Assembly: GCA_001801515.1 (NCBI GenBank)
Contig: MGXX01000020.1
Coordinates: 1 to 32,047 of the forward strand
Length of the DNA: 32,047 bases
Direction: 5' to 3'
From: Gammaproteobacteria bacterium RIFCSPHIGHO2_12_FULL_38_11
Lineage (GTDB): Bacteria; Pseudomonadota; Gammaproteobacteria; Coxiellales; Coxiellaceae
Shown: in pieces, positions 1,169-25,634 of the stretch
Numbering within the stretch: the stretch's first letter is position 1
How the letters are laid out: the number at the start of each line of letters is the position of its first letter
Notes under the pieces: generated by a model
Seen by the model: the letters and a program-made list of their open reading frames with translations, nothing else
Told to the model about the DNA's origin: nothing
Databases searched by the model: none
Translations under genes and position numbers: made by a program

Positions 1169-3733
1169 CTAAATCGTGTTCCCGAATCCATAATGCCCCC
1201 TATTTGAGAACACATCAGAAAATCCAGGTAAGGTTGTCGCAAGCATATCTTCAGCACGATTATTGGCAACACTGCCCAAGCCTTTCAATAAAAATTCAGC
1301 ATAATAATTTGTGCTGTATTGACTTTCAAATGAAGCGCTTCCATTAACCGTAGGCACACCATTATAATCTTTTGAAACAATAAAACGAAACGCCCAACAA
1401 CACGTGTTATAAGATAAACCAACATATTGATCGCGGGTAAGCGAATTCGTGAGATCATAATATTCATATCCAAAGAATTGCCAACGCACCGTGATCGGCC
1501 AAATTAAGCCTGCAGAAATCAAAGAAGAATCACCATTGAAAACAGGCGCATCATACGGTGTGTCCGAACTATTATTGGTGTATTGATAATTAAATAAAAT
1601 AATTTTACGTTGTAAAAAGTGATATTCAACACCCGCTTGCGCATTATTCACTTCACCCAACGCAGTATCCCACGCAACTCGTGAATTAATCGCCCACAGC
1701 GCATTCGGATTCCAAATTAAACCACCCGTAATAGGCGAAATAGATTTGGGCGCCTGGCAGCTGGTTTGTGATAAACAGACATGCGGATCAGTAAAATAAT
1801 CAATAAACCCTAATTGTGCCGATAAAATATCATCCGCATCATTTTGACGTAATATATTACTCGATAACCCCACACTCAATTGATTTGCATTTTGAAAACG
1901 ATCAAAACCTGAGAATTCATTAATTGAATATAAATTACTGGTTGAAAAAGGCAATAATTGCGTATCAAAATTCGGATAATTATTTTGATTTAAATACGGC
2001 GTATACAGATAAAAGATGCGTGGCTGTAATGTTTGAATATATTCTTGCCCATCAATATGCATTTGACGATCAAAATATAAACCACTGTCGATATCAAAAA
2101 TTGGCAAGGTGCGATTAATATCATAATTCGATCGTGGCGCTGTTGGGCTCACGCTGGGCAATTGCGCAAAATAACTGGTGCTATCTGCAATAAGTTTGGG
2201 GGTCAGGTAGAATGAAGCCCAGGTAAAAGGTCTGCTGATACTTGGCTGAAAATGTAATCGTTCACCAATCGGCATTTGAAACGTTTGCGGCGTGAAATTA
2301 CTTTGATACATGAAATTGACCGCTTGTGCCGATAAATCAAAATTATAATTTGGGATAAATTGTGGATAAGCTGCACTAAAATCCAATTCAGGTAATCGCG
2401 TATATTGATTTTGTGCGGGCGTGTTAATTTGACCCAGTGGATGCAAGGTTTGATAAGTTTGTACTAAAAACGTATCCTGCCAATGCAAGCCTGCGTAATC
2501 TAATTCTGAAAAGCTGGGTATTTGATTAGAGTTTTGGGATAAAAAATCAGTTTGAAAATCCTGCGCATAATAAGAATCACTTATGTAACGCGCATAAAAT
2601 TTTCCAGTCCAATATTTATTAAATGTCACATTGTTTTCTAAATTAATAAAGAGGCGATTATTGCTGTCATCTTGTAATTCTGAAATATAAGGTGGCGATG
2701 CCGATGATGAATTATTTGCCACGGCATTTAACGTGTTTTGACGGAAACTGGCAAATTCACGATCATCTGGTAAGATACCCGCATACAAAAAACCATCAGA
2801 TTGACTCGTTAAATAACGAAACAATCCATTTAATTGTACACCACGTTTGGAATACCATGATGGCGTAAACAATAAATCATAATTTGGCGCTATATTCCAA
2901 TAATAAGGTTCTCCCACATAAAAGCCATGTTGCCCCGTGCCATTTTCATAACCCATTCTAGGTGGTAAAAATCCTGATTTGCGCGCATTATTTAACGGAA
3001 ATGAAAAATAAGGCGTGTAAAAAATCGGTACGTGCTTAAAGTGGATGACAACATTATGCGCATAACCTTCGCCTTTACTGTGGTCCAGCTGTATCGACTT
3101 TGCATTAAGGTACCATGATGGATTTTTTGGAGAACAAGTGGAATAGGTTGCATTTTTCAAATCAATCTCACCATTGGGTTTTCGATGAATTGACTTAGCC
3201 ACTCCCCACGCATCAAATGACGTAATCACCATAGGTAATTCATGCTCACCAACAATGTGATACAGCGCATTATTCAAGGAGATCGTATTTTTAACAAGGT
3301 TATAATCTGCCTTTTTTCCCAACATTAATTTGCCCGCTTCTTGTACGCGCACGTGACCAATTAGTTTAATATCGGTTATTTTTCCAGATTTGCTATCTCG
3401 ATAAACAAGGGCCTTATCAGTATAAATTAACCGACCTGGTTGACGGATAAGCACACTGTCTTGCAATACAGAAACACCATTGGTACGAAAAATCACAGGA
3501 CCCTTTGCCGTAATAACAACAGGTATTTTTTTATAGGGTGGAGGATGGGGGACGTCTTCAACTGATTTCGGTTGTGCATAAAATCCATTACACTGCGAAT
3601 GTTTTTCACCCGGAACATGCCCGGTTACCCAACCTAGCGCATCCGCCACTGAATCAGATGCAGAAACATCTACACTCGCCAATACCACGGCTGCAAATAA
3701 AATCGGGTTAATAATTATCGTTAGTTTTTTCAC
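1169..3733 (-). CDS. lptD: LPS-assembly protein LptD
   Basis: Outer-membrane beta-barrel of the LptD/LptE translocon, which inserts lipopolysaccharide into the outer leaflet. The GTG at 3733 is chosen because it gives a signal peptide (MKKLTIIINPILFAAVVLAS, cleavage near SASA); the reading frame extends to a TTG at 3784 without a good ribosome binding site. The 854-residue product has an N-terminal OstA/LptA-like jellyroll (about residues 60-190) followed by a Tyr/Asn-rich barrel. The cysteine pattern expected of LptD is present: one near the N-terminus (QCNG), one after the jellyroll (CSPKNP) and an adjacent pair near the C-terminus (NTCCWAF). An extra pair (VCLSQTSC) sits in a barrel loop. 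surA, often next to lptD in this class, is not adjacent here. LptM, which helps LptD disulphide maturation in E. coli, is encoded at 7766. Confidence 0.96.
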   Translation of the reverse strand: MKKLTIIINPILFAAVVLASVDVSASDSVADALGWVTGHVPGEKHSQCNGFYAQPKSVEDVPHPPPYKKIPVVITAKGPVIFRTNGVSVLQDSVLIRQPGRLIYTDKALVYRDSKSGKITDIKLIGHVRVQEAGKLMLGKKADYNLVKNTISLNNALYHIVGEHELPMVITSFDAWGVAKSIHRKPNGEIDLKNATYSTCSPKNPSWYLNAKSIQLDHSKGEGYAHNVVIHFKHVPIFYTPYFSFPLNNARKSGFLPPRMGYENGTGQHGFYVGEPYYWNIAPNYDLLFTPSWYSKRGVQLNGLFRYLTSQSDGFLYAGILPDDREFASFRQNTLNAVANNSSSASPPYISELQDDSNNRLFINLENNVTFNKYWTGKFYARYISDSYYAQDFQTDFLSQNSNQIPSFSELDYAGLHWQDTFLVQTYQTLHPLGQINTPAQNQYTRLPELDFSAAYPQFIPNYNFDLSAQAVNFMYQSNFTPQTFQMPIGERLHFQPSISRPFTWASFYLTPKLIADSTSYFAQLPSVSPTAPRSNYDINRTLPIFDIDSGLYFDRQMHIDGQEYIQTLQPRIFYLYTPYLNQNNYPNFDTQLLPFSTSNLYSINEFSGFDRFQNANQLSVGLSSNILRQNDADDILSAQLGFIDYFTDPHVCLSQTSCQAPKSISPITGGLIWNPNALWAINSRVAWDTALGEVNNAQAGVEYHFLQRKIILFNYQYTNNSSDTPYDAPVFNGDSSLISAGLIWPITVRWQFFGYEYYDLTNSLTRDQYVGLSYNTCCWAFRFIVSKDYNGVPTVNGSASFESQYSTNYYAEFLLKGLGSVANNRAEDMLATTLPGFSDVFSNRGHYGFGNTI

Positions 3734-3763
3734 GGCAGACTTAATTTTTTTTAAAACTCCTGT

Positions 3764-3769
3764 ATTATA
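3764..3769 (-). promoter_or_regulatory. Possible -10 box for lptD
   Basis: A perfect TATAAT reads on the minus strand about 30 bp before the GTG at 3733, in the short divergent lptD-amgK gap. No convincing -35 was found 16-18 bp further out. If real, transcription would start near 3757, downstream of the alternative TTG start at 3784, which supports the GTG start. Confidence 0.35.
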
Positions 3770-3799
3770 CCCATTGTGTTTCAATATGCGAGCAGTTCA

Positions 3800-4762
3800 A
3801 TGGACACTTCAATTGATTCCAGGTTATCTGCATTACATGCTTGGCTATCTGGCCTTTTTCATGAGACCACTGCTTTCACAATCACACCCTTAACAGGCGA
3901 TGCAAGCTTTCGTCGCTATTTTCGCGTCATTATTGCAAAAAAAACGTTTATCGTGATGGATGCGCCGCCAGAAAAAGAAGACTGCACCGCTTTTATTGCT
4001 ATTGCAGATGCATTTAAAAATGCATCAGCGCGTTTTCCCCACATTATTTCTCACGATCTCAATCAAGGATTTTTATTGCTGCCTGATTTCGGTGATCGAC
4101 AATTATTGCCTTCACTTGAAAATAATGCTGCTGATAAATTGTATCAATCAGCGATGACCACTTTATCGCAAATTCAACAGTGTAGTATCGTGCCGAATTA
4201 TAATTTACCCTGTTTTAATGCTGTTTTATATTGGCGTGAATTTGAAATTTTCGACACCTGGTATATCAAAAAAAGACTGGGCAAACAATTATCCAACGTC
4301 AATGAAAAAAAATTAAAATCATGTTATCAATTATTGATTGATTCTGCCAATGCGCAACCGCAAGTATTTGTCCATCGCGATTACCATTCACGCAATATTA
4401 TGGTGTGCGATGATGGTGAACTGGGTGTTCTGGATTTTCAAGATGCGGTTTTAGGCCCCATCACCTATGATTTAGTTTCCTTATTGCGCGATTGCTATAT
4501 TGCATGGCCCGATGATCAAGTAGAGAAATGGGTTAGGTTGTTTTATCAACAATTAAATTTGTCGCTTGATTTTAAAATTTTTATGCGTTGGTTTGACTTA
4601 ATGGGATTGCAACGACACCTAAAATGCCTGGGTATTTTTTCACGATTATATTATCGCGACGGAAAAGAAGCTTATCTCAAAGAAATTCCGCGGGTGCTAA
4701 ATTACGTGATGACTGTTTGCAATAAATACCCAGAATTGCAATTGATGATAACATTACTTTAA
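3800..4762 (+). CDS. amgK: AmgK-type anomeric MurNAc/GlcNAc kinase
   Basis: Aminoglycoside-phosphotransferase-fold sugar kinase. AmgK phosphorylates C1 of MurNAc (and GlcNAc) so that MurU can make UDP-MurNAc, a cell-wall recycling route that bypasses de novo (fosfomycin-sensitive) synthesis. Seen in the 320-residue product: Gly-rich GDASFRRYFRV (33-43), the catalytic loop HRDYHSRN (H192, D194, N199) and the metal-binding DFQDA (D212, D215). The ATG at 3800 is the first ATG; a GTG at 3776 would overlap the long form of lptD. The lptD-amgK-murU order is also known in pseudomonads (PA0595-PA0597), which supports the assignment over a generic phosphotransferase. Here hipBA separates it from murU, and its 3' end overlaps hipA by 9 bp. 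Confidence 0.85.
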   Translation: MDTSIDSRLSALHAWLSGLFHETTAFTITPLTGDASFRRYFRVIIAKKTFIVMDAPPEKEDCTAFIAIADAFKNASARFPHIISHDLNQGFLLLPDFGDRQLLPSLENNAADKLYQSAMTTLSQIQQCSIVPNYNLPCFNAVLYWREFEIFDTWYIKKRLGKQLSNVNEKKLKSCYQLLIDSANAQPQVFVHRDYHSRNIMVCDDGELGVLDFQDAVLGPITYDLVSLLRDCYIAWPDDQVEKWVRLFYQQLNLSLDFKIFMRWFDLMGLQRHLKCLGIFSRLYYRDGKEAYLKEIPRVLNYVMTVCNKYPELQLMITLL

Positions 4763-6064
4763 TTTATCCCTGGCCAATCGCATGCCATCAAAAACAGGCT
4801 TTGCTATTTTTCTCGGAAACCGCTTTGGTAATTCTTTTGTGACAACACAAATAACATCATCCACCTTACTCAACATGGAATTTATTATTTCTTCGGCTTT
4901 CTCGGGCGAAAAACGCGCTGTTTTTGCAGCACTTAAAAAATGACGTCGTTGCATTTCATGCCAATGATAATGCTTATTTTTTCCTTCCAGTGCCATTGCC
5001 ATTTTTATTTTTTTTGCTTGCAATTGCTTGTTGGCAATTAACGGATAGGCTGACATGATGTCATACAAGGGTGTTAATCGAAATTGCCCACCAGGCTCTA
5101 AAAAAATACTGAAATTTTTGGCATGGCCATCAATAGCCGCCAACAACCAAAACAATACCTGCGTCCCAAAAAAAAATTCGCGATCTTTATCTGGTGTTGC
5201 AGAACCCAGCAATAATTTCATAATATCTTTTATACCAGGACCACCATCCGATTGATATTTAAAATCAGGAGGAATACCCAATGCTTGACACATATCTTCT
5301 TGTGGTAAACGCAGTATTTTTTTTCGATCACGTGATAATTTACGATCAAAGCGCTTAACAATCAACGCTTTTACACCATCAAAAATGCCAATGTCGCATG
5401 AAGCTGTCGGCAATCCAAATGCTCTTGCAATCTGCGCACATAACCATTCGTTTTCACAGCTGTCACTTAAATCCATTTTCTGATGCAAAATGACACCAAT
5501 CGGCAATTTAAAAATATGCGTTGTGGGTGTTGAACCAATAGGTCGCATCCATTTTTTGCGCCAATATAATAATGCAGATTTTTCTTGTGCGCCCGCTATT
5601 GAAATACGAAAATCATTTTCATCATGCGTCATTCCCAATGGGTTTGTTTTTATATTACGCAGCAGCGATGCTATTTTTTTTTCACTGAGCGGCGCACACT
5701 GTATTCCACTTGAAAATTTATTATCATCCGGCATACGCAGTTGTATTGCACCAACGCAATCTTTTCCAATTACCGTCAATAAATCAAATGGTTCATTCGT
5801 GGCCGCATGAAAATAAGCTTGAATACGTGATCGAATTTGCGGATTATCAGGAAGTAAATTATCAAAAAAAGAATAAACCGTTCGCGCCGTAAATTCTTTT
5901 GCAAGCAAAGGCAATGACAACGATATAGGGCGTGCGCCTGGCATAGCTAACCATGTTGCATCATAAGAAAAACAAAATGCACGGCTTCCCTTTTTTTCAA
6001 GTGTGCCGACTCTTTTTTCATTCATATACACATGCAAAACACGATTTTTTGTATTGTTTACCAT
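4754..6064 (-). CDS. hipA: HipA serine/threonine-protein kinase toxin
   Basis: Toxin of a type II HipBA module. E. coli HipA phosphorylates glutamyl-tRNA synthetase, stalling translation and promoting persistence. The 436-residue product matches the full E. coli length (440). Visible parts: N-terminal HipA-N1 domain (about 5-115); the loop RISIAGAQEKSA (153-164) with S155 at the position of the E. coli autophosphorylation site; THIFKLPIG (182-190); catalytic DGHAKN (D312, N317); and metal-binding YDIMS (D335). Nothing essential appears missing, so it is probably active. The ATG at 6064 has GGAAGGA just upstream and overlaps the hipB stop by 7 bp, indicating translational coupling; a GTG at 6076 is the alternative. 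It lies convergent to amgK, sharing 9 bp of 3' end. Confidence 0.94.
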   Translation of the reverse strand: MVNNTKNRVLHVYMNEKRVGTLEKKGSRAFCFSYDATWLAMPGARPISLSLPLLAKEFTARTVYSFFDNLLPDNPQIRSRIQAYFHAATNEPFDLLTVIGKDCVGAIQLRMPDDNKFSSGIQCAPLSEKKIASLLRNIKTNPLGMTHDENDFRISIAGAQEKSALLYWRKKWMRPIGSTPTTHIFKLPIGVILHQKMDLSDSCENEWLCAQIARAFGLPTASCDIGIFDGVKALIVKRFDRKLSRDRKKILRLPQEDMCQALGIPPDFKYQSDGGPGIKDIMKLLLGSATPDKDREFFFGTQVLFWLLAAIDGHAKNFSIFLEPGGQFRLTPLYDIMSAYPLIANKQLQAKKIKMAMALEGKNKHYHWHEMQRRHFLSAAKTARFSPEKAEEIINSMLSKVDDVICVVTKELPKRFPRKIAKPVFDGMRLARDKLK

Positions 6065-6303
6065 TCTTCCTTCCACTCAGTTTGATCAGATGATTTATCC
6101 AACGCACTTAAATCAAGATTAACCGCAGACAATATGTAAAAAAGCGTTTGCAATTTTGACCTTTCCGGTTTATTTTCAAATGATGAAATAGTTTGCTGTT
6201 TAACACCAATTTTTTTCGCAACCATGGATTGACTGAGTTTGAGTTTTTTTCGCTGCTTAATGACCAGCAATGCCAATTCAGCAGCAGAACGAAGAATAAT
6301 CAT
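6058..6303 (-). CDS. hipB: HipB antitoxin, XRE-family repressor
   Basis: An 81-residue DNA-binding antitoxin (E. coli HipB is 88). A helix-turn-helix of the XRE type covers about residues 17-70, with recognition-helix region VKQQTISSFENKPE. The tail ending TEWKEEW matches the C-terminal Trp found in E. coli HipB. It binds HipA and represses its own operon. The ATG at 6303 is preceded by GGGGG, which is part of a palindromic operator (6305-6324), so repressor binding and ribosome binding involve the same bases. Upstream are two more operators and a good promoter (6330-6358). Confidence 0.93.
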   Translation of the reverse strand: MIILRSAAELALLVIKQRKKLKLSQSMVAKKIGVKQQTISSFENKPERSKLQTLFYILSAVNLDLSALDKSSDQTEWKEEW

Positions 6304-6304
6304 A

Positions 6305-6380
6305 TTACCCCCTATAACGGATAAAACAAATTTTATCCCCTATAGAGGGTAAAGTCAACATTATCCGCTATAGGGGGTAA
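6305..6380. promoter_or_regulatory. Three HipB operators at 28-bp spacing, shared by hipBA and murU
   Basis: Three 20-bp palindromes fit TTAYCC-N8-GGRTAA: O1 6305-6324, O2 6333-6352, O3 6361-6380. Start-to-start spacing is exactly 28 bp both times. The E. coli HipB operator is TATCC-N8-GGATA, so the half-sites and 8-base spacing agree with the known family. O1 read on the minus strand (TTATCCGTTATAGGGGGTAA) and O3 on the plus strand (TTATCCGCTATAGGGGGTAA) differ at one base. Each ends one base before an ATG (hipB and murU) and supplies its GGGGG ribosome binding site. O2 lies between the -35 and -10 boxes of the hipBA promoter. Confidence 0.9.
6330..6358 (-). promoter_or_regulatory. hipBA promoter
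   Basis: On the minus strand TTGACT (6358-6353) and TAAAAT (6335-6330) are separated by exactly 17 bp, a near-consensus sigma-70 promoter. Operator O2 occupies the spacer, and O1 covers the predicted start point and the hipB ribosome binding site, so autorepression is expected. Confidence 0.75.
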
Positions 6381-6381
6381 A

Positions 6382-7041
6382 ATGAAAGCCATGATCCTTG
6401 CCGCCGGCCGCGGCGAACGACTGAAACCATTAACGGTCATTACCCCAAAACCCCTATTAATAGTGGGTAATACCACTTTGCTAGGGCACACGCTACATCA
6501 GTTACATGACGCAGGAATTAAAGATGTGGTTATTAACGTGCATCATCTAAAAGACCAAATCATCGATTATTGCGGCAATGGTTCTCATTTTAATTTAAAT
6601 ATTCAATATTCAATTGAAGATGAATTACTGGAAACAGGCGGCGGACTTTTTCAAGCGTTACCTTTACTGGGCAATAAACCGTTTTTATTAATCAGTGGTG
6701 ATATCTGGACGGATTATCCATTGACAAATTTAATAATAAAACCTGTGCGCGCTGCACATTTGGTATTCGTGAATAATCCTGATTTTCATTTAGCGGGAGA
6801 TTATAGTTTAGATAAAAATAATATTGTACGCGCCGATCACTCTGAAAAATTTACCTATGCCAACATTGGCATAATTCACCCTGATTTATTTTACGCTGAA
6901 AAACCCGGCGCCTTTCGTTTAACAAAGGTTTTGCAGCCCGCGATTAATCAAGGCCTGGTAACAGGTGAGCATTATAGTGGTGTTTGGCACAACGTTGGCA
7001 CAACCAAAGCGCTACACGAACTACGCGAACACCTTCGTTAA
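6382..7041 (+). CDS. murU: N-acetylmuramate 1-phosphate uridylyltransferase MurU
   Basis: Transfers UMP from UTP to MurNAc-1-phosphate made by AmgK, giving UDP-MurNAc. The 219-residue product starts with the nucleotidyltransferase signature LAAGRGERLKPLT...PKPL (residues 6-26), followed by ETGGGL and the metal-site region ISGDIW. This length and these motifs fit MurU; a mannose- or glucose-1-phosphate nucleotidyltransferase is the alternative, made less likely by the amgK neighbour. Its AGGGGG ribosome binding site is inside HipB operator O3, and the ATG follows O3 after one base. The usual amgK-murU junction is broken by hipBA on the opposite strand, so murU must use a promoter in or near the operator region. 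Its last 21 bp overlap the convergent esterase gene. Confidence 0.88.
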   Translation: MKAMILAAGRGERLKPLTVITPKPLLIVGNTTLLGHTLHQLHDAGIKDVVINVHHLKDQIIDYCGNGSHFNLNIQYSIEDELLETGGGLFQALPLLGNKPFLLISGDIWTDYPLTNLIIKPVRAAHLVFVNNPDFHLAGDYSLDKNNIVRADHSEKFTYANIGIIHPDLFYAEKPGAFRLTKVLQPAINQGLVTGEHYSGVWHNVGTTKALHELREHLR

Positions 7042-7695
7042 CCAATTGTGAATATCCTGAATTTCTGGCGGCGTGATTTCATGTTGCATAGCATATTCCT
7101 TCCATTGCGTATTTGGATGTGTTTCACGAACAATGTCATATGCCATTTTTCCCGCGAAACACGGCAAGGTCATATCATGCGATCCATGTGCAATAAAAAT
7201 AGGTGTTTGTAAATTGGTTTCCACTACATGCTGACCATGTTCGTGCAACAACGGCAAATAACATGAAAGCGCTAAAATCCCCGCTATTTTTTGTTGCTGA
7301 CGCACACCCGCATACAACGCCATTGCTCCGCCCTGTGAAAACCCCGCAAGTACAATACGATTGGCAGGCATGCCATTTGCAATTTCCGCTTGAATTAGCT
7401 GCGTAATCGCGTGCTGTGATGCAATAATTCCCGCTTGATCCTCATGATTTAAATCCGTCAAACTATAAATATCATACCAAGCACGCATCAACACATGATT
7501 ATTAATCGTAACAGGTCGAACAGGTGCATTAGGAAATATGAAACGCAGCGGCAATCGATCACCACGCCAAAGATCAGGCACAATCGTGTCAAAATCAGCG
7601 TGATGCGCACCTAAACCGTGCATCCAAATAACACTGCCGATGCTTTTTTGTTTTGGATTTAAAATATGCGTTTCTAGATTTGAATTGGTGTTCAT
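7021..7695 (-). CDS. Alpha/beta-hydrolase, phospholipase/carboxylesterase family
   Basis: A cytosolic serine hydrolase of the carboxylesterase/acyl-thioesterase family (PF02230 type, which includes YpfH and Pseudomonas carboxylesterase). The 224-residue product has HGLGAHHADF near the N-terminus (oxyanion region), the nucleophile elbow GFSQGG, the acid-containing GSHDMTLP and a C-terminal His in HEITPPE, giving a complete Ser-Asp-His triad. There is no signal peptide. The ATG at 7695 is the first ATG; a TTG at 7710 is less likely. The substrate cannot be told from sequence. The gene is divergent from lptM and convergent with murU. Confidence 0.87.
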   Translation of the reverse strand: MNTNSNLETHILNPKQKSIGSVIWMHGLGAHHADFDTIVPDLWRGDRLPLRFIFPNAPVRPVTINNHVLMRAWYDIYSLTDLNHEDQAGIIASQHAITQLIQAEIANGMPANRIVLAGFSQGGAMALYAGVRQQQKIAGILALSCYLPLLHEHGQHVVETNLQTPIFIAHGSHDMTLPCFAGKMAYDIVRETHPNTQWKEYAMQHEITPPEIQDIHNWLTKVFA

Positions 7696-7723
7696 ATGAT
7701 TTTTTCTCAATATTACAATATTA

Positions 7724-7732
7724 TGTTATGAT
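7724..7732 (+). promoter_or_regulatory. Possible extended -10 promoter for lptM-dapF
   Basis: TGTTATGAT carries the TGn extension plus a TATGAT -10 box, about 35 bp before the lptM TTG. The -35 region (TTCTCA at 7704-7709) is weak, as is common for extended -10 promoters. Confidence 0.4.
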
Positions 7733-7765
7733 TTCGTCTTTGAATTTTATCACAGGATAACCGCA

Positions 7766-7900
7766 TTGAAAGCATTGTTTTTAATTTTACTGTGTGTAAG
7801 CGTTAGTATGTTAGCAGGCTGCGGACAAGAAGGCTCATTATATTTACCCCATGGGAAATCAGAAGCTGCTCCTATTTCAACCGGGAAAGTAACACAATGA
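7766..7900 (+). CDS. lptM: LptM (YifL-type) lipoprotein, LPS translocon maturation factor
   Basis: A 44-codon gene that is easily missed because it is short and starts with TTG (AGGA sits 8 bp upstream). The product has a short hydrophobic signal (residues 2-15), a lipobox LAGC with the lipidated Cys at 19, then CGQEGSLYLP (19-28). This CGxxGPLYxP-like motif is the hallmark of the YifL/LptM family, which helps LptD and LptE assemble with the correct disulphides. Its stop overlaps the dapF start as ATGA (7897-7900), so the two are translationally coupled. In E. coli yifL also directly precedes dapF, and this synteny strengthens the call. Its partner LptD is encoded 4 kb away in this window. 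Confidence 0.88.
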   Translation: MKALFLILLCVSVSMLAGCGQEGSLYLPHGKSEAAPISTGKVTQ

Positions 7901-8724
7901 ATGAACTGTTTTTTACTAAAATGCACGCATTGGGTAATGATTTTGTTGTACTAGATACCATTCGACAATCCGTTACAATCACCCCTGAATTTATTCGCCA
8001 TATTGCCAACCGACATCGCGGCGTAGGATGCGATCAAGTATTGTTGTTAACGCCCACAGAAAATCCTGCGGCTGATTTTGGTTATCGTATTTTCAATGCG
8101 GATGGCAACGAAGTGTATCAATGCGGCAATGGTGCGCGCTGTATGGGCTTATTTATTCAATCAGAAAACTTAAGTGAAAAAAAAATTATTTATTTGGCAA
8201 CACGCCATCATGTTATGCGTGTGGCTTGCTTACCGCTAAATCAAATAGAAGTGGATATCGCCATACCTAACTTTAATCCTGCAAGCCTGCCTTTTATTAC
8301 CACAGAAAAGGCAGCACCTTATCACCTTCAATTATCAAAACATCATATTATTTTTGATGTGGTGAACGTCGGCAATCCTCACTGCATTATACGCGTAGAA
8401 AATGAAGTGGCCGACGATATAATCGACATTGGCAAACAGCTCAACGAACACCCCGTTTTTCCGCAAGGCGTAAACGTGGGATTTGTTTACGTTCAATCAC
8501 GTGACGCTATCAAATTAAACGTGTATGAGCGCGGCGTGGGTTTAACAGAAGCCTGCGGTAGTGGCGCCTGCGCTGCCGTGGCCATAGGTCGATATGCCGG
8601 TTATTTAAATGAAACTGTCACAGTACATCAAGCCGGTGGTTTATTACGCGTTACCTGGCCATCAGATGACGCGATGATCCAGCTGCAGGGATCAGCAACA
8701 ATTGTTTTTCGCGGTGTTTGGTAG
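7897..8724 (+). CDS. dapF: Diaminopimelate epimerase
   Basis: Converts LL- to meso-diaminopimelate for lysine and peptidoglycan synthesis in the cytosol. The 275-residue product (E. coli 274) has both catalytic cysteines in context: C76 in QCGNGARC and C220 in EACGSGACAA. The substrate-binding segment FTKMHALGNDFVV is at 6-18 and NVGNPHC at 157-163. Its ATG overlaps the lptM stop by 4 bp. A gap of about 85 bp with its own promoter separates it from the dksA-like gene. Confidence 0.97.
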   Translation: MNELFFTKMHALGNDFVVLDTIRQSVTITPEFIRHIANRHRGVGCDQVLLLTPTENPAADFGYRIFNADGNEVYQCGNGARCMGLFIQSENLSEKKIIYLATRHHVMRVACLPLNQIEVDIAIPNFNPASLPFITTEKAAPYHLQLSKHHIIFDVVNVGNPHCIIRVENEVADDIIDIGKQLNEHPVFPQGVNVGFVYVQSRDAIKLNVYERGVGLTEACGSGACAAVAIGRYAGYLNETVTVHQAGGLLRVTWPSDDAMIQLQGSATIVFRGVW

Positions 8725-8809: not shown

Positions 8810-9628
8810 ATGATAGCAAAAAAAAAGAAAAAGGTTATTAGCAAAAAACCGGCAAGAAAAGCAGTAAAAAACCCAAAAAAGGCCGTTAAAAAGGCGACAA
8901 AAAAAATCGTTAAAAAAGCAACGGTGAAAAAAACAGTAAAAAAAGCAGCAGCGAAAAAAACAATAAAAAAAATAACAAAAGCAAAACAACCCGCCAAAAA
9001 GACAACGCAAAAAACCGCAAAAAAAGCGCCGTCTAAAAAATCATTGGCAAAAAAATCTATTGTAAAACCTGCTACCAAACCTGTTGTTAAACAAAAAATC
9101 ACGAAGAAGCAGAGAAGTAAAAAAATGACTGAAAAACTGGAGTACAATGCAGGTGAAGAATTTGATGTTATTCAATTGCCAGAAAGAGCAACACCACGTA
9201 AAGCAACCACATTACTGGGCGCGCTGGAATTTACACCTTATCAACCTAAGCCCAATGAAACCTACATGAATGACGCGCAACGCGATCATTTTAGAAAAAT
9301 TTTAGATGCATGGAAGCAACAGCTAATGCAAGATGTCGATTTAACAGTAGGCCACTTAAAAGAAGAAGCTGTTTTTTACGCTGACCCTGTCGATCGCGCC
9401 ACACAAGAAGAAGGCTTTAATTTAGAATTGCGTACACGTGATCGCGAACGCAAATTAATTAAAAAAATTGAGCAATCACTCGATTTACTAAACACGAGTG
9501 AATATGGTCATTGCGAAGATTGTGGCGCAGATATTGGCATTCGTCGATTGGAAGCACGCCCAACCGCCGTAAAATGCATTGATTGCAAAACGTTCCAAGA
9601 AATTCGAGAAAAGCAGTTAGGTGGGTAA
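8810..9628 (+). CDS. dksA: DksA-family RNA polymerase-binding regulator with histone-H1-like N-terminal tail
   Basis: DksA binds the RNA polymerase secondary channel and works with ppGpp in the stringent response. Residues 106-272 form a normal DksA: coiled-coil region, the tip motif DPVDRA (D192, D195, A197), and a four-Cys zinc finger (C235, C238, C256, C259). Ahead of it lies a tail of about 105 residues with roughly 44 Lys, no Asp or Glu, and KKA/KKT/KKI repeats like bacterial H1-like proteins, so DNA or RNA binding is expected. AGAGGGAG gives a strong ribosome binding site for the ATG at 8810. An in-frame ATG at 9125, preceded by AGAGAAG, could start a 167-residue canonical form. E. coli DksA has 151 residues. 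A stop/start overlap of 8 bp links it to folB. Confidence 0.9.
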   Translation: MIAKKKKKVISKKPARKAVKNPKKAVKKATKKIVKKATVKKTVKKAAAKKTIKKITKAKQPAKKTTQKTAKKAPSKKSLAKKSIVKPATKPVVKQKITKKQRSKKMTEKLEYNAGEEFDVIQLPERATPRKATTLLGALEFTPYQPKPNETYMNDAQRDHFRKILDAWKQQLMQDVDLTVGHLKEEAVFYADPVDRATQEEGFNLELRTRDRERKLIKKIEQSLDLLNTSEYGHCEDCGADIGIRRLEARPTAVKCIDCKTFQEIREKQLGG

Positions 9629-25588: not shown

Positions 25589-25600
25589 GCGTTCAGTCTC

Positions 25601-25634
25601 TGTGACTGTGACTGTGACTGTGACTGTGACTGTG
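25601..25634 (+). repeat. Hexanucleotide microsatellite (TGTGAC)5.7 in the erpA leader
   Basis: Five exact TGTGAC units plus TGTG run from 25601 to 25634, directly joined to the GGAG ribosome binding site of erpA. The unit length is a multiple of three and stays in frame with erpA, where it would read as Val-Thr repeats with GTG codons. Confidence 0.95.

Follow-up and report, generated by a model that had tools for sequence, protein, structure and literature searches.

In E. coli, HipB recognizes the operator TATCCN8GGATA, and four operators with cooperative HipB binding have been described, as has an O1O2 probe laid out as 20-8-20, the layout also found in the locus described here (PMC3376134). 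HipB is further reported to repress relA, eutH, and fadH in E. coli, with its palindrome upstream of 33 genes (reviews PMC10305079 and PMC3920263, citing Lin et al. 2013). Repression of unrelated chromosomal genes by an antitoxin is already known, HipB included. In Legionella pneumophila hipBST, hipB is preceded by three HipB sites at even intervals, separated by 53-bp gaps (PMC10653801).

Here we analyzed a 32,047-bp stretch of DNA, referred to as the window, whose numbering is used for all coordinates. Its gene order is lptD (minus strand), an amgK-like kinase (plus), hipA (minus), hipB (minus), murU (plus), an esterase-like gene (minus), and dapF (plus), the last two identified by eye from their translations rather than by family search. 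MurU, the MurNAc-1-phosphate uridylyltransferase (6382–7041, plus strand), is full length at 219 amino acids and scores 257 bits against a cut-off of 250 for NCBIfam NF045761. The sugar kinase upstream (3776–4762, plus strand) matches Pfam APH, and its best match is NCBIfam AmgK NF045759, which aligns to residues 16–328 at 276.1 bits, below the cut-off of 550; based on this best match and the gene order, we consider it amgK-like. The predicted kinase toxin gene hipA (4754–6076, minus strand) is convergent with amgK, and their 3′ ends overlap by 9 bp. HipA contains the N-terminal coupling domain (Couple_hipA, PF13657) and the HipA_C kinase domain (PF07804), both above gathering scores; it shares 44% identity with E. 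coli HipA and retains the AGAQEK and DGHAKN stretches. The HTH antitoxin and repressor gene hipB (6058–6303, minus strand) lies directly upstream of hipA and overlaps it. HipB is above the cut-off for HTH_3 and matches the HipB of PDB 2wiu at 2e-10; the E. coli HipB model gives it 60.5 bits, under the cut-off of 79. A KQxT(I/V)S motif, which we take to be the DNA-reading helix, and a C-terminal EW are invariant in all six aligned HipBs, E. coli among them.

The gap between hipB and murU is 78 bp long and holds three exact TTAYCCN8GGRTAA palindromes, O1 (6305–6324, minus strand), O2 (6333–6352), and O3 (6361–6380, plus strand), with registers 28 bp apart. These are the only exact matches in the window, where about 0.009 would be expected from base composition. 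When up to two mismatches are allowed, there are nine matches versus 3.5 expected from shuffles, so only the three exact sites stand out. All three fit the HipB operator TATCC-N8-GGATA with C or T at the third base, and Tandem Repeats Finder (TRF) reports 6304–6382 as 2.8 copies of a 28-bp unit. O1 read on the minus strand and O3 read on the plus strand differ at one of 20 bases. Each is separated by a single base from a start codon, that of hipB (6303–6301, minus strand) for O1 and that of murU (6382–6384) for O3, and each contains GGGGG. In O3 this run (6373–6377, plus strand) is the likely Shine-Dalgarno (SD) sequence of murU, and the G-rich half of O1 is the likely ribosome site of hipB. 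The palindromes, their spacing, and the near-identity and placement of O1 and O3 had all been claimed from the sequence before this analysis and were confirmed to the base.

Further repeats occur elsewhere in the window. A perfect hexanucleotide repeat, CTGTGA, is present in 5.8 copies at 25600–25634 within overlapping ORFs on both strands; by eye, this is the N-terminal part of a putative iron-sulfur protein. An ORF at 8810–9628, DksA-like by eye, has a long lysine- and alanine-rich N-terminus and carries a 27-bp tandem repeat at 8900–8971.

The hipBA promoter is predicted on the minus strand at 6330–6358, with TTGACT (−35, 6358–6353) and TAAAAT (−10, 6335–6330) separated by a 17-bp spacer and 10 of 12 sigma-70 consensus positions matched. 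O2 lies between the two elements, as originally predicted, and also overlaps the −10, so that it covers both the spacer and the −10. The arrangement had been called a near mirror image as well. This stands for the outer operators and for TAAAGT (6350–6355, plus strand), a −10-like mirror of the hipBA −10 that was found by eye and is not listed in the promoter scans, but the mirrored −35 position (6327–6332) reads CAAATT and is no match. That the sites are of HipB type is borne out, with KQxT(I/V)S conserved throughout the aligned HipBs, and the sequence supports O1–O3 as HipB-type operators that belong to a hipBA promoter.

The array closely resembles that of E. coli K-12 hipBA (locus L106), where the motif is also TATCC-N8-GGATA, O1 and O2 are 28 bp apart, and O2 sits at the −35/−10 spacer with a −35 of TTGACT that also runs into O2. 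HipB may bind the window array cooperatively. Unlike the three even sites of the window, E. coli K-12 has four sites, starting at 4465, 4493, 4532, and 4560, with steps of 28, 39, and 28 bp, and the annotated feature flanking them is the pseudogene yneO rather than the start of an opposing gene. The L. pneumophila hipBST locus shares three even sites before hipB; however, it has 53-bp gaps, another motif, and a split toxin, whereas in the window HipA is full length and the motif is of TATCC type.

We also compared the array with other hipBA loci. The closest HipA relatives in the taxonomic order of a Coxiellaceae MAG (L001) are those of L081 (64%) and L082 (60% over residues 2–320, at a contig end). 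Both have three sites at 28/28 bp upstream of hipB, those of L081 being degenerate (10, 8, and 9 of 10 positions), and the upstream neighbors of these arrays, named from ORFs, look like a Nudix gene and ispH, not murU. A HipA at E ≤ 1e-60 was present in 34 of 369 gammaproteobacterial genomes; 30 loci were taken, and HipB was located by tblastn in 26. Counting sites with at least 9 of 10 positions within 300 bp, at least two occur at 13 of these 26 hipB genes, a single one at one gene, and none at 12. The 22 spacings are 28 bp (16), 27 bp (5), and 56 bp (1); loci L188 and L124 are one and the same. Three of nine viral HipA loci carry arrays, with steps of 27/27/27 in L107, 27/27/28 in L108, and exact sites as in L108 for L109, and the other six have none. 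Four plasmid loci were also compared: L155 carries two scored sites at a distance of 56 bp, between which a weaker one can be seen, L156 has two at 27 bp, and no TATCC-type sites were found in L157 and L158. The motif is not shared by all hipBA relatives. An O1 core 4–6 bp from the hipB ATG also occurs in L162, L163, L171, L188, L108, and L156. Even 28-bp spacing is, judging from these loci, ordinary for hipBAs that use the TATCC-type motif, and we rejected the idea that it identifies a special shared array because it is general in hipBA, in E. coli, the relatives, and the sample alike. The idea of a dedicated hipBA–murU design was likewise not upheld, since the same 27–28 bp arrays and an O1 abutting hipB occur without murU. 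Searches with the pattern itself gave one of the 369 genomes (L124) and eight viral stretches for tandem operators, and, for single sites in three whole genomes, one in G027, two in G030 (both in the hipBA array), and two in G001. In viral contigs L116–L123, TTAYCCN8GGRTAA pairs 28 bp apart (three sites in L121) occur with no HipA relative found by tblastn, in several cases near phage ORFs that are HNH- and lysis-like by eye.

The cell-wall genes on either side of hipBA correspond to the amgK-murU operon of Pseudomonas and relatives. In the best 80 of 589 confirmed murU loci (44–51% identity), the gene immediately preceding murU is amgK in 68 cases, and 63 have lptD. The amgK stop and murU start overlap by 4 bp in 59 of those 68, and the other nine gaps are 3–143 bp. 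Unlike the window, none of the 80 has hipA or hipB beside murU. L001 has the order lptD-amgK-murU-esterase-dapF, with hipBA absent; its genome, G001, occurs in both murU samples, as L001 and L133. Across the order of L001, a MurU match of some kind occurs in 31 of 36 genomes, many of the matches being paralogues. Among the 30 loci taken, amgK and murU are together in 25, and the gap, computable in 24, is −4 in 13; none of the 30 has hipA or hipB at murU. The closest locus there, L125 (69–70% MurU identity), has a gap of 19 bp. Because amgK and murU are usually adjacent and neither hipBA nor a HipB site is found between them in these relatives, the simplest reading is that a 1.6-kb hipBA module inserted between amgK and murU in the lineage of the window. 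A chimeric assembly is unlikely, since the genes flanking the insertion on its two sides follow one another in the lptD-amgK-murU-esterase-dapF cluster of relatives.

O3 might instead predate hipBA as a murU control site, recognized at that time by HipB or a different factor. The original prediction had accepted that an O3 equally conserved before murU in relatives without hipBA would count against it. HipB sites were absent within 120 bp upstream of murU in all of the best 80 of 589 loci and from the 30 loci in the order of L001, so this check did not refute the original prediction, and with no support found for an ancestral site we rejected this explanation as extremely improbable. O3 is best read as the outer operator of hipBA itself, which murU probably came to abut on insertion.

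Several of the murU loci had features of their own. In L127 (G005), TTATCC followed by four 7-bp GGATAAC repeats lies at about 1460–1500, directly before the murU start and with no hipBA there; the repeats resemble HipB half-sites, but their spacing does not fit. Short repeat-like, GCGAGC-rich stretches were seen by eye at the amgK-murU junction of L125, L126, and L128, as though the junction were a frequent target of insertions. In L148, L149, and L152 (G022, G020, and G015, all in the order of L001), amgK and/or murU seem broken, with split matches and in-frame stops, which suggests that the salvage pathway may have been lost in these genomes.

The position of O3 sets the window apart from other arrays. 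In none of 17 others (L107 and L108 being nearly alike) is the outer operator core followed within 40 bp by the start of an opposing ORF of at least 80 amino acids; the nearest starts are at 45, 45, and 46 bp, compared with 2 bp in the window by the same measure. No second hipBA–murU case was found by tblastn, with murU or amgK beside 0 of 20, 0 of 30, and, for viruses, 0 of 9 HipA loci, and hipBA between amgK and murU was seen on one contig. HipB identical to that of the window is present on four contigs (P0001), and identical MurU on three (P0052). The two closest MurU relatives among the matches listed are P0053 (84%, on a 24,794-bp contig) and P0054 (78%, on a 31,584-bp contig). Neither contig was matched to any of the HipB matches listed, and no common contig was recognized between the closest HipB matches (P0003–P0006, down to 68% HipB identity) and the 120 MurU matches listed, comparisons that are weak either way. 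The original prediction took the sharing of a HipB operator with a chromosomal housekeeping gene in this way to be undescribed. This was too broad, since repression of relA, eutH, and fadH is published (PMC10305079, PMC3920263). Those genes likewise combine a HipB palindrome with a non-toxin-antitoxin gene; however, they have separate chromosomal sites according to these reviews, whereas in the window it is the module's own array that abuts its neighbor. Within the literature searched, we found no description of murU with hipBA or of a hipBA-type operator shared with a housekeeping gene. What is new, as far as searched, is a hipBA array overlapping the start of the gene next to which it inserted, a cell-wall recycling gene.

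We propose that a hipBA module with its own three-site, 28-bp-spaced array inserted into the amgK-murU operon of an uncultured gammaproteobacterium, which to judge from its relatives is probably Coxiellales-like. The main job of the array would be hipBA autorepression, with HipB, probably together with HipA, covering O1–O3 and the hipBA promoter. Insertion would have separated murU from amgK and removed the 4-bp stop/start overlap usual in relatives, leaving the G-rich half of O3 to supply the murU Shine-Dalgarno sequence with the start codon one base beyond. A murU transcript from the gap or from amgK must cross DNA that HipB could cover, so murU expression would most likely fall on binding of HipB or HipAB and rise in the absence of HipB. 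Although an operator overlaps the start of murU, its regulation by HipB is a prediction, and repression is plausible from the sequence. Taken together, insertion with its own array and probable HipB repression of murU is the reading we favor, with modest confidence.

The source of the murU transcript bears on this proposal. There is no convincing murU promoter in the gap, where the sole plus-strand match has its −10 on the murU ATG, although TAAAGT at 6350–6355 could possibly act as a weak −10 without a −35, in which case the RNA would begin near 6362. Promoter-like matches in 3700–6500 number nine, versus 9.6 from shuffles, which is chance level; there is a plus-strand promoter-like site inside hipB (6156–6184) with 9 of 12 consensus positions. 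A crude scan found no plus-strand terminator-like site from amgK to murU, so read-through from amgK is possible, and Rfam gave no match at gathering score in 3500–8000. These observations would also suit an O3 that serves hipBA only, with murU read from amgK or the hipB-internal promoter, indifferent to HipB, and the overlap an accident of insertion. The generic nature of the array favors this as well. However, read-through transcription would be expected to meet HipB bound on the DNA, and read-through RNA is predicted to hide the start of murU (see below), so we regard this explanation as possible but on the unlikely side.

As O1 and O3 are inverted near-copies, folding predictions give plus-strand RNA across the gap a stem (6301–6384; −40.5 kcal/mol, z −8.17 for 6295–6400) that encloses the murU SD and ATG. 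The predicted unpaired probability of the SD is 0.00 for all ten 5′ ends from 5900 to 6325, 0.03 at 6335, and 0.17–0.18 for four 5′ ends from 6345 to 6365, and that of the ATG is 0.02–0.06 for 5′ ends up to 6301. On the other strand, the hipB SD is unpaired at 0.00–0.02 for 5′ ends at 6350 and beyond, at 0.18–0.25 for ends at 6323–6324, the expected hipBA transcript start, and at 0.08 at 6320. This could indicate that hipBA has captured murU and that the array, through its DNA operators and the RNA hairpin, acts as a two-way insulated switch coupling UDP-MurNAc salvage to the HipAB persistence state. RNA from outside would then fold the ribosome site and start of murU (or, on the other strand, hipB) into one stem, and murU would be translated mainly from transcripts starting within the HipB-covered array. 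The switch is weakened by the SD being mostly paired even in short murU transcripts. Moreover, palindromic operators fold by nature, so the hairpin may be a mere by-product. When 20 other hipBA arrays were folded in the same way, z lay between −0.6 and −5.8, with unpaired values of 0.01–0.84 for the SD region; the window is the most extreme (z −6.2 on the murU side and −7.0 on the hipB side, SD 0.00), with comparable closure at the L163 SD (0.01) and the L155 ATG (0.05). We consider capture of murU by such a switch rather doubtful.

The same hairpin could mean that the insertion largely silenced murU, which would be off amgK, with its start folded away, and heading for loss. The broken murU genes of G022, G020, and G015 are in keeping with such a course. 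However, murU in the window is full length, above its family cut-off, and has a plausible SD, which makes silencing improbable.

Under the favored reading, insertion of hipBA with probable HipB repression of murU, the locus may be informative in two ways. The salvage pathway that includes murU lowers fosfomycin sensitivity in Pseudomonas and Caulobacter (PMC7038268, PMC13046382), so a link to a persistence module would be open to direct test; should murU prove indifferent to HipB, the locus would be an ordinary insertion. In addition, a HipB half-site (GGRTA, often behind purines) resembles a Shine-Dalgarno sequence, and a hipBA module landing by a start codon can therefore supply a ribosome site and a repressor site together. 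In this simple way, a toxin-antitoxin module could gain control over a housekeeping gene.
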